Assembly (NCBI GenBank): GCA_000999315.1
Contig: LCFW01000002.1
Span: 62,001 to 126,000 of the forward strand
DNA: 64,000 bases
Reading direction: 5' to 3'
Source of the DNA: Candidatus Peregrinibacteria bacterium GW2011_GWF2_43_17
GTDB taxonomy: Bacteria; Patescibacteriota; Gracilibacteria; UBA1369; UBA12470
Position 1 is the stretch's first letter. Every line of letters begins with the position of its first letter. The notes beneath the pieces were generated by a model. The model ran no database searches, was not told the DNA's origin, and saw nothing but the letters and a program-made list of their open reading frames with translations. The position numbers and the translations under genes were made by a program. This document shows, one piece after another, positions 5,210-59,983 of the stretch.

Positions 5210-5338
5210 CAGACCGTCCGACAATGAAATTGGAGGACGGTCCTAAACAAGCGAAGGATTGACGCGTAAAATGTTATTCTGTGCAACAGATAGCAAAAAG
5301 CATTGTTTTCTTAAAAAAGTTCATTGTCGGACAGCCTG
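5210..5338. repeat. MITE-like element, copy 1
   Basis: This 129-bp unit is nearly identical to 34479-34612; the only difference is 5 bases (cggcg) missing near the right end. Its ends form 19-bp terminal inverted repeats with 17 matches, CAGACCGTCCGACAATGAA on the left and CAGGCTGTCCGACAATGAA on the right, read inward. An internal hairpin pairs GACCGTCC with GGACGGTC at the left end. No target-site duplication is obvious and no protein is encoded. Such non-coding units are normally mobilised by a transposase elsewhere in the genome. Confidence 0.75.
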
Positions 5339-16367: not shown

Positions 16368-16976
16368 ATGGGATTTTTGCTCGCAATAAATACGGCTTTA
16401 AGTAAAACCGAAATCGCATTTTTGGATGGGCGAAATATCCTCAAAGAAGATTCATGGATTTCTTCGGCGGACGAGAGCTCGAAGATACTTCCTTACGTAG
16501 AGAAAACGATGTCCGAATTAGGATTAACTTTTAAAGATTTGACTGCGCTTTTTGTCGTCAAAGGTCCCGGTCCTTTTACGTCGCTCCGAGTTGGGATAAC
16601 GATAGTGAACACTTTGGAATATCTGTTGAAAATCCCGATTTATACAATGAATACGTTCGAACTTTTAAAATTAAAAGCGGCGACAACAGAGCCTTTATTG
16701 ACGATTATCGAAGGTGGTGGTGAAACGAAATTTTCAAAAAAATTCCCCGATGGAAACGAGCCGATTATGGGACCGATTGAAAAACATTTCACCGATAAAA
16801 AGATTCTTTGCATTTCCGATTTGAAAGAAAATCCATCTTGGCTAAATAAAATCCCGACAGCGAAATTGTTAACATTCGGCGAAGCGCTTCTCGAAGTTGA
16901 CTTTAAAAAACTCGAAAAAACGAGCATGATAAAACCATTATATTTAAGACCACCAAACGTAACCAAGAAAAAATGA
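16368..16976 (+). CDS. tsaB: TsaB, tRNA threonylcarbamoyladenosine modification protein
   Basis: TsaB is the ASKHA-fold partner that, with TsaD and TsaE, installs t6A37 on ANN-decoding tRNAs. The N-terminal LLAINTAL strand, the hallmark KGPGPFTSLRVG (family GPGSFTGLR) and the MNTFELL segment are present. The 202-residue length is a little short because the C-terminal lobe is reduced. It lies one base after leuS, and its stop overlaps the rsmI start by 4 bp. The TsaD and TsaE genes are not in this window. Confidence 0.9.
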   Translation: MGFLLAINTALSKTEIAFLDGRNILKEDSWISSADESSKILPYVEKTMSELGLTFKDLTALFVVKGPGPFTSLRVGITIVNTLEYLLKIPIYTMNTFELLKLKAATTEPLLTIIEGGGETKFSKKFPDGNEPIMGPIEKHFTDKKILCISDLKENPSWLNKIPTAKLLTFGEALLEVDFKKLEKTSMIKPLYLRPPNVTKKK

Positions 16977-17812
16977 CGCCAGACCCGCTGCATTGTAACA
17001 ATTCGTCACGAAATACAACAAATTCGAGCGAAAATGTCGAAGCGCGAGGAAAACGTATCAGATTGGATACGATGACGAGCGATAAGACATTTGCAGCCGA
17101 ATTTGTAAATTGCAGTAGAATTGCTTACAGTGCGGCGGGTCTGTTATATACCGTAGCAACACCGATAGGGAATCTTTCCGACATAACTTACAGAGCCGTT
17201 GAAGTTTTGAAGTCGGTGGATTTGATCGTCGCAGAAGATACTCGCCACTCAAAGGTTCTCCTTGATAAATATGGCATTACAAAGCCGCTGGAAAGTTTTC
17301 ACGCGCATTCTGACGACTCGAAACTCGATTTATTGATTCGCAAATTACTTGCCGGCGAAAACTTGGCGTTGATATCGGATGCGGGAACGCCGGGGATTTC
17401 GGACCCGGGATTCAGATTGATAAGTAAGGCGGTTGAGTTGGGTGTGAAAGTTATCCCGATACCTGGCGCAAGCGCTTTTTTAACAGGTTTGCAAGCGGCG
17501 GGTCTGCCGACAGACAAATTCATTTATTTGGGATTCTTGCCGATCAAAAAAGGCAGGCAAACTTTGTTTAAAAAAATAGCGGAAGAAGAAAAAACGATTG
17601 TGTTTTACGAGTCTCCTCATAGGATTCAAAAGACGCTTTCGCAAATTGCGGAATTTATGCCGGGCAGGTATATTTCGGTCGCGCGCGAACTTACAAAAAT
17701 ATATGAAGAATTTATCGCCGGACCGGTTGAAGAAGTTGCCAAGAAAGTTAAGCCGAAAGGCGAGTTCGTAGTGATGATCGCGCCAAAAGATTTTAAAAAA
17801 TTCAACAGATGA
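16973..17812 (+). CDS. rsmI: 16S rRNA (cytidine1402-2'-O)-methyltransferase RsmI
   Basis: RsmI is an SAM-dependent tetrapyrrole-methylase-fold enzyme that methylates C1402 in the ribosomal P site. The core starts at LLYTVATPIGNLSDITYRA (residue ~57) and has AEDTRHSKVLLD, SDAGTPGISDPG, PGASAFLTGLQ and FYESPHRI. All catalytic and SAM-binding phrases are intact. The first ~56 residues are an extra Asn/Ser/Thr-rich leader not usual in this family. There is no ATG between codon 34 and the core, and the 4-bp overlap with tsaB supports initiation at 16973. Its stop overlaps the next gene by 4 bp. Confidence 0.93.
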   Translation: MTPDPLHCNNSSRNTTNSSENVEARGKRIRLDTMTSDKTFAAEFVNCSRIAYSAAGLLYTVATPIGNLSDITYRAVEVLKSVDLIVAEDTRHSKVLLDKYGITKPLESFHAHSDDSKLDLLIRKLLAGENLALISDAGTPGISDPGFRLISKAVELGVKVIPIPGASAFLTGLQAAGLPTDKFIYLGFLPIKKGRQTLFKKIAEEEKTIVFYESPHRIQKTLSQIAEFMPGRYISVARELTKIYEEFIAGPVEEVAKKVKPKGEFVVMIAPKDFKKFNR

Positions 17813-34478: not shown

Positions 34479-34612
34479 CAGACCGTCCGACAATGAAATT
34501 GGAGGACGGTCCTAAACAAGCGAAGGATTGACGCGTAAAATGTTATTCTGTGCAACAGATAGCAAAAAGCATTGCGGCGTTTTCTTAAAAAAGTTCATTG
34601 TCGGACAGCCTG
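34479..34612. repeat. MITE-like element, copy 2
   Basis: This is 134 bp and matches 5210-5338 at essentially every base except an extra cggcg near the right end. Terminal inverted repeats (CAGACCGTCCGACAATGAA and the inverted CAGGCTGTCCGACAATGAA) and the internal GACCGTCC/GGACGGTC hairpin are conserved. The copies share orientation and lie about 29 kb apart, each near a tRNA-Gly gene. Confidence 0.78.
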
Positions 34613-58680: not shown

Positions 58681-58842
58681 TTTGAACCCCCGGGCAACTC
58701 TGTTAACAGGCCGGTAGCGAAGCGAACGATCAATTATTATGAGTTTGATTGCTAATGCAATCTCCTCATAAAATTCTCCCCGGGGAGAAAACCCAGCTGC
58801 TGTTTAAACAAATCTTAATGTTATTGAATTCAATAACATTAA
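58681..58842. repeat. Left flank of the Bro-N cassette: stacked palindromes
   Basis: This segment holds TTTGAACC (58681-58688) and CAGGCCGGT (58707-58715), which recur inverted at 59791-59821. It also has an ATGAG/CTCAT hairpin with an inner GATTGC/GCAATC pair (58739-58769), the palindrome TTCTCCCCGGGGAGAA (58774-58789), and a perfect 28-bp palindrome (58815-58842) centred on GAATTC. Such density of palindromes in 160 bp suggests the edge of an exchangeable unit. Confidence 0.65.
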
Positions 58843-58882
58843 AACACTGAAAATCCAAATCCCGTGACAAACAGCTTCCAAC

Positions 58883-59710
58883 TCACTTAATCCTTTTTCC
58901 ACCTCGCCTCTTCGGCAAATAATTCTCTTTGGACACCACAGATCTGCCAATCTCATGCTCCAATGCTTTTCTCGCAGTACCGGCGATTTTGCCACCTCTT
59001 TCGGCATCTTTTTTAAGCTTGGGCACGCCTTTTGAATTATCGATGCGATGAATTTCGGTTGTTGATCTCTCGCCAAGCATGGTGAAGATCAGCTCGAAAT
59101 CATCCATGTGATCACGTAAATTTTCTCGTTTCAATCCTTTCAGATCCTTATATTCACTTGGGGTTACGCCAAAAGTGGCTTTTGATATTTCGGCGGTTAA
59201 TATCTCGTAATCTTTTTGCTCTTGCGCGCCTCGTTTCTGCCATTCGTCGGTCAATTCTTCACGAATAGCAATCCCGCGCATTCGTTTCTCAATCCATTCT
59301 TCCGGATAACCTTTCAGTTTATACAACATGCGTGTTCGTTTGGTCGCCAGTTCAGGATTTTCTATTTCTTGTACTCGCTCGTAACCGACTTTTGCCAGCC
59401 AACGCTTAAACGGCTCGGCTTTAGGGGAGGGGATTGATTGAATGATACGGAAAATACCTTCGGTGTTTGCGCAATTCATTTTCTGGATGCCTCCTTCTGT
59501 TAATATGTCAAGGGTGTGTACAATTTGTACATATCCTTTTGCCAATTCCGGATCACGATATTTCATACGTTGAATATATTGTTTTGGATTGCTTGAGTCC
59601 ATAAGGGCTAAAACGACATCTTCAACCACAAACCACCACTCATTATTATGGAGAGTTTTTCTGATTCTTGTGCCTTTGAATAGCGCTATTTTTGTAGTTT
59701 GATTGTCCAT
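58883..59710 (-). CDS. Bro-N domain protein (phage antirepressor-like)
   Basis: The N-terminal ~110 residues match the Bro-N domain (IRKTLHNNEWWFVVEDVVLALMDSSNPKQYIQRMKYRDPEL), with the usual GIFRIIQSIPSPKAEPFKRWLAKVG segment. The rest is a helical region (residues ~130-230), and the C-terminus is basic (LPKRRGGKRIK), consistent with DNA binding. Bro-N proteins occur as phage antirepressors, and similar solitary genes are common in CPR genomes, where their role is unknown. The gene lies between stacked palindromes on both sides, unlike any other gene here. No phage structural gene is nearby. Function as a regulator is inference. Confidence 0.8.
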   Translation of the reverse strand: MDNQTTKIALFKGTRIRKTLHNNEWWFVVEDVVLALMDSSNPKQYIQRMKYRDPELAKGYVQIVHTLDILTEGGIQKMNCANTEGIFRIIQSIPSPKAEPFKRWLAKVGYERVQEIENPELATKRTRMLYKLKGYPEEWIEKRMRGIAIREELTDEWQKRGAQEQKDYEILTAEISKATFGVTPSEYKDLKGLKRENLRDHMDDFELIFTMLGERSTTEIHRIDNSKGVPKLKKDAERGGKIAGTARKALEHEIGRSVVSKENYLPKRRGGKRIK

Positions 59711-59755
59711 TCGCCAGATAGTATATCACGCAGACATTAAATTTTTATGAAAAAA

Positions 59756-59790
59756 CAAAGGGGGGGGGGCGATTTGCCCCCCCCCCTTTG
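59756..59790. repeat. G10/C10 perfect hairpin
   Basis: CAAA followed by ten G and a C (59756-59770) pairs with G, ten C and TTTG (59776-59790) around the loop GATTT. The 15-bp stem contains an uninterrupted run of ten G-C pairs, 46 bp upstream of the Bro-N start. The long G-run could form a quadruplex. It may be a transcription stop, a recombination substrate or an assembly-sensitive homopolymer. Confidence 0.7.
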
Positions 59791-59865
59791 ACCGGCCTGC
59801 CCCGCCTTGCGGTGGTTCAAACCTGTTAACCATTTTTAATGTTATTGAATTCGATAACATTAAAA
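59791..59865. repeat. Right flank of the Bro-N cassette
   Basis: ACCGGCCTG (59791-59799) and GGTTCAAA (59814-59821) are the inverted copies of the left-flank motifs. A 32-bp palindrome (59834-59865) with one central mismatch repeats the one at 58815-58842, including TTATTGAATTC. Confidence 0.65.
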
Positions 59866-59983
59866 CAAAAAGCGGGACGATTTATTAGTTTGGTAGAAAA
59901 TTCGGGAATCCTGAATTTTCTCATCCATTCGACGAAATCAAATAGTCGTATTTTATGCTTTCCTCAACCTGTTGCAGGCCGTC

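Follow-up and report, generated by a model that had tools for sequence, protein, structure and literature searches.

Two nearly identical blocks of non-coding DNA, each bounded by inverted repeats, occur in the stretch analysed here (the window, 64,000 nucleotides from the genome of Candidatus Peregrinibacteria bacterium GW2011_GWF2_43_17), raising the question of what kind of element this is and by what route it came to stand in more than one place. The first-pass annotation regarded the pair as a two-copy, MITE-like element whose near identity implied either recent movement or selection as a structured RNA. The element, termed A, has the following features in the window, its terminal repeats having been located by a degenerate end-pattern search:

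5210..5338, plus strand: element A, copy #0, 129 bp, in a convergent intergenic region
5210..5228, plus strand: left terminal inverted repeat of copy #0
5300..5310, plus strand: remnant of internal hairpin c in copy #0, with GCATTG+TTTTC left; the most eroded of eight short copies
5320..5338, minus strand: right terminal inverted repeat of copy #0
34479..34612, plus strand: element A, copy #1, 134 bp, 10 nt past a stop codon
34479..34497, plus strand: left terminal inverted repeat of copy #1
34569..34584, plus strand: remnant of internal hairpin c in copy #1, GCATTGCG+GCGTTTTC; full-length copies elsewhere in the genome are ~26 nt longer here
34594..34612, minus strand: right terminal inverted repeat of copy #1

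The basic description of the pair holds: the copies show 100% identity over 96 nt and 34 nt and differ by a 5-bp indel, CGGCG being present only in the second (copy #1), their inverted ends (CAGACCGTCCGACAATGAA / CAGGCTGTCCGACAATGAA) match at 17 of 19 positions, both have the same orientation, and coding sequence was seen in neither. The degenerate pattern of these ends, with up to 3 mismatches allowed, occurs five times in the window, compared with a mean of 0.04 in window shuffles. The reported position upstream of tRNA-Gly genes had to be reversed, because both of these genes lie on the minus strand and A thus stands on their 3' side, at distances of 52 nt (copy #0) and 685 nt (copy #1); the nearest features are in fact the stop codons of plus-strand genes, 19 nt and 10 nt away. 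By eye, the flanks of copy #0 resemble the arms of a common intergenic hairpin, GGAGATTGC...CAATCAGC, and both copy #0 and copy #12 appear to lie within this repeat, off its exact base. Another palindromic arrangement was seen at 58807-59867 of the window, where a gene with a BRO-N domain (58883-59710) stands between two near-identical palindromic 40-nt repeats.

The description as a two-copy element applies inside the window only. In the whole assembly, a very small genome of 1,204,769 bases (~1.20 Mb) in 16 contigs, BLAST gave 21 matches, which together with weaker ones resolve into 13 two-ended copies (three of them short by 1 to 4 bases at their termini), two half copies, one at the end of contig C1 and one at the start of contig C13, and eight fragments, including a 57-bp miniature with A-like ends and a 35-nt hairpin. 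The analysis is based on this one assembly, from which ~0.38 Mb was examined as stretches besides the window. Full-length A measures ~160 nt, and the flanks of its copies are unrelated to one another. All copies are intergenic, with two of them overlapping the end of a neighbour by 1 and 13 nt, and the only open reading frames that enclose a full copy run on the opposite strand, encode 75 and 83 aa, and consist largely of repeat sequence. Two of the surroundings deserve mention. At L062:9870-10218, a 149-nt repeat match adjoins copy #12 and a second, degraded 3' part of A lies beyond it, the 149 nt representing the interval between these two as viewed from either side; at L059:15335-19000, a few kb from an A copy, there is a very long Tyr/Cys-rich repetitive protein (e.g., with CPDGCYYYD repeats).

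The distribution of A is narrow. BLAST detected no copy in two other genomes of the family or in 88 other genomes of the order, and among 379 genomes of the phylum, real copies were found in its own genome only. Four other genomes of the phylum gave matches of 21 to 44 nt (E ~3e-4 to 6e-4 per genome), which look like chance, and the possibility that A has been kept in relatives was rejected on these data. A scan of a named genome collection for the palindromic pattern of A also returned no match. With copies restricted to one genome, the suggested selection of A as a structured RNA is not supported. Recent spread of a mobile, non-coding element with terminal inverted repeats is borne out by the 13 copies with unrelated flanks and their absence from 88 genomes of the order, so that the MITE-like label is apt to this extent; as a strict MITE, A falls short on flanking duplications and on a transposase with matching ends.

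Flanking duplications were checked by script, and a flush direct repeat of at least 2 nt was found in 0 of 13 copies; copy #2 has a 1-nt flush repeat, and copy #3 has a 5-nt repeat only if 1-3 nt of slippage is allowed. A transposase with matching terminal repeats was sought among four transposase families in this one genome, and none was found. PF01797 (Y1, RAYT-type) and PF02371 (IS110-type) had no match here, with matches in 5 and 4 of 14 control genomes, respectively, and PF00665 (rve) likewise had none. A single PF01609 protein, an IS4-like DDE transposase, is present and has its own inverted repeat, CTAAAAAGGCACGAATTTT, which is unrelated to the ends of A. It belongs to an apparently intact IS4-like element (L069:996-2280, contig C14), the only PF01609 match, with a run of N just downstream. 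No pair of A ends (up to 3 mismatches) encloses a transposase gene, and ordinary open reading frames lie between two A copies 2.2 kb apart on contig C7. A DDE transposon bounded by A ends was accordingly rejected as a candidate. Apart from these families, a repeated protein of 258-277 aa was observed (L060:1716-2492 and L068:13802-14635), the C-terminus of which looks HNH-like; neither copy gave a convincing Pfam match, and the one copy compared with NCBIfam gave none.

What A does upon arrival can be seen from its junctions. Several copies lie inside other repeats, and two repeat groups, B/C (B ending in TAGGGCCTGTGCACACTATTGG and C in TAGGCAGTGTTCACATATATTTTTT) and D, occur both with and without A; since the same recipient is available with and without its guest, the outcome of a move can be read to the base. 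At tip 1, B elements without A read GAGGAGCGCT / GCGTACCCGTTGGTACGC / GAGTGACGAGC, and copy #11 reads GAGGAGCGCT / A / GAGTGACGAGC, with the 18-nt hairpin gone. At tip 2, B elements without A read CACTCCTCCTC / GCCCCGCTTAGCGGGGC / TTTCCAG at four places (with small variations), GTAATAC standing there at others, and copy #9, with the same flanks, reads CACTCCTCCTC / A / TTTCCAG; the ancestral content of this tip may have been the 7-nt strand GTAATAC instead of a whole hairpin. Copy #3 lies in D (L057, L064), which is unrelated to B, and stands in place of a 40-nt segment with the hairpin GTCCCGCTTAGCGGGAC at its end: its right junction falls exactly at the 3' base of this hairpin and its left junction 23 nt outside the tip. 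Among one-sided or partial cases, copies #5, #8, #14, and #16 have the same boundaries on one or both sides, and in #16 the left side of tip 1 and the right side of tip 2 are connected by a 35-nt hairpin made of A ends. An equivalent connection, within a C element, would be formed by the half copies on C1 and C13 if these two contigs are neighbours; the breaks at the end of C1 and at the start of C13 both fall within A, each contig carries the left half of A, and the two half copies face each other, each in one half of a C element.

Altogether, 10 of 11 testable junctions coincide with a tip boundary (two each for #9, #11, and #16, and one each for #5, #8, #14, and, on its right, #3), the exception being the left junction of #3, and exact replacement of a B hairpin tip with both flanks testable was observed at two sites (#9 and #11). 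Nine of the 13 copies (#0, #1, #2, #4, #6, #7, #10, #12, and #13) had no two-flank homologue lacking A in the DNA compared. Among the B tips, L068/L085, L076/L109, and L086/L115 represent the same places and were counted once each. The junctions are not all independent because B copies share descent, and several of those in B may go back to a single event whose product was later copied or spread by gene conversion; the data seem to call for no fewer than three independent events, namely at tip 1 of B, at tip 2 of B, and in D. If B is taken to measure 284 nt and the replaced interval to be no longer than 125 nt, there are ~35,000 possible intervals, two of which excise exactly one tip, and by our own arithmetic the chance per two-sided hit is of the order of 1e-4. 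A tRNA fragment was rejected as the identity of the left flank of #10, which is part of a common intergenic hairpin repeat.

Exchange of tips appears to extend to hairpins other than A. A scan of 468,647 fetched bases located the hairpin core CCCGCTWAGCGGG five times, always in a tip site of B or D, and D-like repeats elsewhere, as judged by eye, have a different tip, GTATC...GATAC. The presence of one core in the tips of two unrelated families, together with D-like repeats that have another tip, points to tip exchange independent of A. The position of A exactly in place of hairpin tips, at the sites open to comparison, suggests that hairpins in this genome can be swapped for one another. Among the papers listed by a literature search on replaced hairpins, none was relevant by title.

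The B/C element folds into three parts: the outer stem has TAGG...CCTA ends, and both arms combine an internal loop that is conserved with a tip that varies. The fold z values are -14.1 (L112) and -11.1 (L076). From 20 loci, 18 elements were extracted (without L070 and L117), and the first arms of 14 of them were aligned (alignment A1), leaving out L094, in which one strand is missing, and the near-duplicates L120, L124, and L126. In this alignment, 96.6% of cells are paired and 24 of 36 pairs have changed on both sides, values reached by none of 500 shuffles and by no slid control, with the cell counts not being independent because the arms include near relatives from one genome. This degree of pairing and two-sided change identifies the resident tips as true hairpins and characterizes B/C as a new-looking three-way palindromic element with strong covariation. 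Its range is wider than that of A: BLAST detected it in 6 of 88 genomes of the order, own genome included, covering several genera, and a covariance model with strict filters found it in 11 of 379 genomes of the phylum, again including its own, with the weaker matches (E ~1e-4) being less sure. It had no Rfam match, and it did not surface in literature searches on MITEs of the Candidate Phyla Radiation, on palindromic or inverted repeats of Patescibacteria, or on Peregrinibacteria. Examples include L076:1501-1790, L112, L114, and L127, among others, and the genomes concerned are G000, G001, G018, G084, G085, and G086. At L130, L131, L140, and L145, which are from other genomes, B-like elements have an outer stem similar by eye to the 3' ends of tRNAs, and L145 has a further large hairpin inside its second arm. 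The window itself contains a long palindrome at 16985-17140 that overlaps the start of an open reading frame (16973-17812) and has an arm resembling those of B and D; a weak model match lies at 17011-17109 (E 0.048).

Tips are also lost from A itself. In full-length copies, its internal hairpin c consists of GCATTG...CAATGC with a loop of ~24 nt, and eight copies with hardly any substitutions elsewhere each carry a deletion of their own, always confined to this hairpin. The loop is reduced to 6 nt in #7, to 4 nt in #9 and #11, and to 2 nt in #10, and the stem is partly lost in #12, #6, #1, and #0, in that order; in #8 and #13, other parts of A have deletions as well. The uniqueness of the eight deletions may partly reflect ascertainment, since assembly from short reads can separate copies only where their middles differ.

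On these grounds, we consider A to be a selfish, non-coding palindromic repeat of one lineage that has spread by hairpin-for-hairpin exchange, i.e., by cutting and rejoining at hairpin bases, a reading to which we assign a probability of about one in two. Structure-specific cleavage of a DNA hairpin at its base, either in single-stranded DNA at the replication fork (on the lagging strand) or in an extruded cruciform, would remove the resident tip, and an A hairpin released or copied by an equivalent process would be joined where that tip had been. This would account for the exact ends of A without target duplication, for the exact loss of tips, and for strings of palindromes after genes. Cutting and rejoining of hairpins would also explain why B and D share tip hairpins, and the same handling of tips could possibly have produced the nested deletions of hairpin c. 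The cutting and joining step is reconstructed here from its outcome, and the same applies to the enzyme and to the nature of the donor, which may be DNA or RNA; template switching during replication is a possible alternative to cutting and rejoining.

The main rival is that A is a non-autonomous, MITE-like transposon moved in trans by a transposase that prefers hairpins and that has been lost, is too diverged for the models, or is missing from the assembly, the resident tip having been lost during or after insertion. It gains from the precise ends with 19-bp inverted repeats found in nearly all copies and from insertion sequences with a known preference for hairpin targets, such as IS1111 into GTAG palindromes according to the relevant excerpt of PMC10969869. 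Simple insertion, however, adds sequence and leaves the exact two-sided loss of a resident tip unexplained; none of the 13 copies has a flush duplication of at least 2 nt, PF01797, PF00665, and PF02371 are all without a match in the genome, the ends of the PF01609 protein are unrelated to those of A, and no pair of A ends encloses a transposase, the region between the C7 copies included. We regard this rival as a serious contender, though the less probable of the two.

Retention of A for an RNA function, e.g., as a 3'-end hairpin or terminator of the preceding gene, is improbable. Although the 3' end of a gene or tRNA is no more than 100 nt away from 12 of 15 placed copies (13 two-ended ones and two halves), this location is also expected from tolerance in intergenic DNA, and although the RNA fold of A has z values of ~-4.4 and -4.6 on the two strands, a terminator-like pattern is absent from both window copies, A has no Rfam match (only tRNAs scored above gathering), no copy is present in the relatives searched, and hairpin c is destroyed in several copies. 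Even less credit can be given to the idea that the joints between A and B or D are assembly artefacts. Several copies have unique genes on both sides, in contigs 89 to 373 kb long, and the ends of A share no sequence with the flanks in B and D that could have caused a misjoin, even though contigs C1 and C13 end inside A copies, as assemblies tend to do at repeats, and the eight uniquely deleted copies are those that an assembler can resolve, so that their uniqueness is maybe in part ascertainment.

Compared with known systems, A resembles REP/REPIN sequences in being an intergenic hairpin repeat. These are hairpin repeats between genes that are probably handled as single strands and are associated with RAYT transposases; A differs in its organisation and in the lack of any Y1 transposase match in its genome. 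The lack of an IS110-type match in the genome likewise sets A apart from an IS110/IS1111 derivative. Prokaryotic MITEs, as characterized in part of PMC10969869, are similarly short, non-coding, intergenic, and multi-copy with terminal inverted repeats, whereas A has no target-site duplication and no matching transposase that could be found and stands in place of resident hairpins. Rickettsia palindromic elements, as outlined in the same source, are of comparable size (~150 bp), palindromic, and located in a reduced genome, but they are noted there for in-frame insertion in genes (PMC10969869), in contrast to A, which lies between genes. Parallels in behaviour come from organelles. According to the excerpts of these sources, the short palindromic repeats of Volvox organelles often lie inside one another (PMC2670323), and yeast mitochondrial GC clusters undergo palindrome merger and shuffling, for which the authors lean to RNA-mediated ligation (PMC4478555); like A, these palindromes and those of sponge mitochondria are selfish and mutually nested, and they can merge or be shuffled and give rise to double or triple hairpins (PMC2670323, PMC2800124, PMC4478555). 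Palindromes within palindromes are common to both, as a matter of behaviour only. The organelle units belong to organelle DNA and are mostly shorter, and the excerpts of these sources do not describe exact tip-for-tip replacement.

Palindromic repeats are present in many bacterial and organelle genomes, and the mode of their spread is often unclear; the B/C recipient family deserves a separate study of its own. A further, tentative proposal, which we think somewhat unlikely as it stands, is that hairpin-for-hairpin exchange represents a general mode of DNA mobility in this lineage, in which a cellular activity would cut and rejoin hairpin bases, and A, the 17-nt CCCGCTTAGCGGG hairpins, and the arms of B, C, and D would be interchangeable modules that need no transposase of their own. 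The outcome of the hairpin swap, in turn, provides a concrete and testable prediction about the nucleases and ligases involved.
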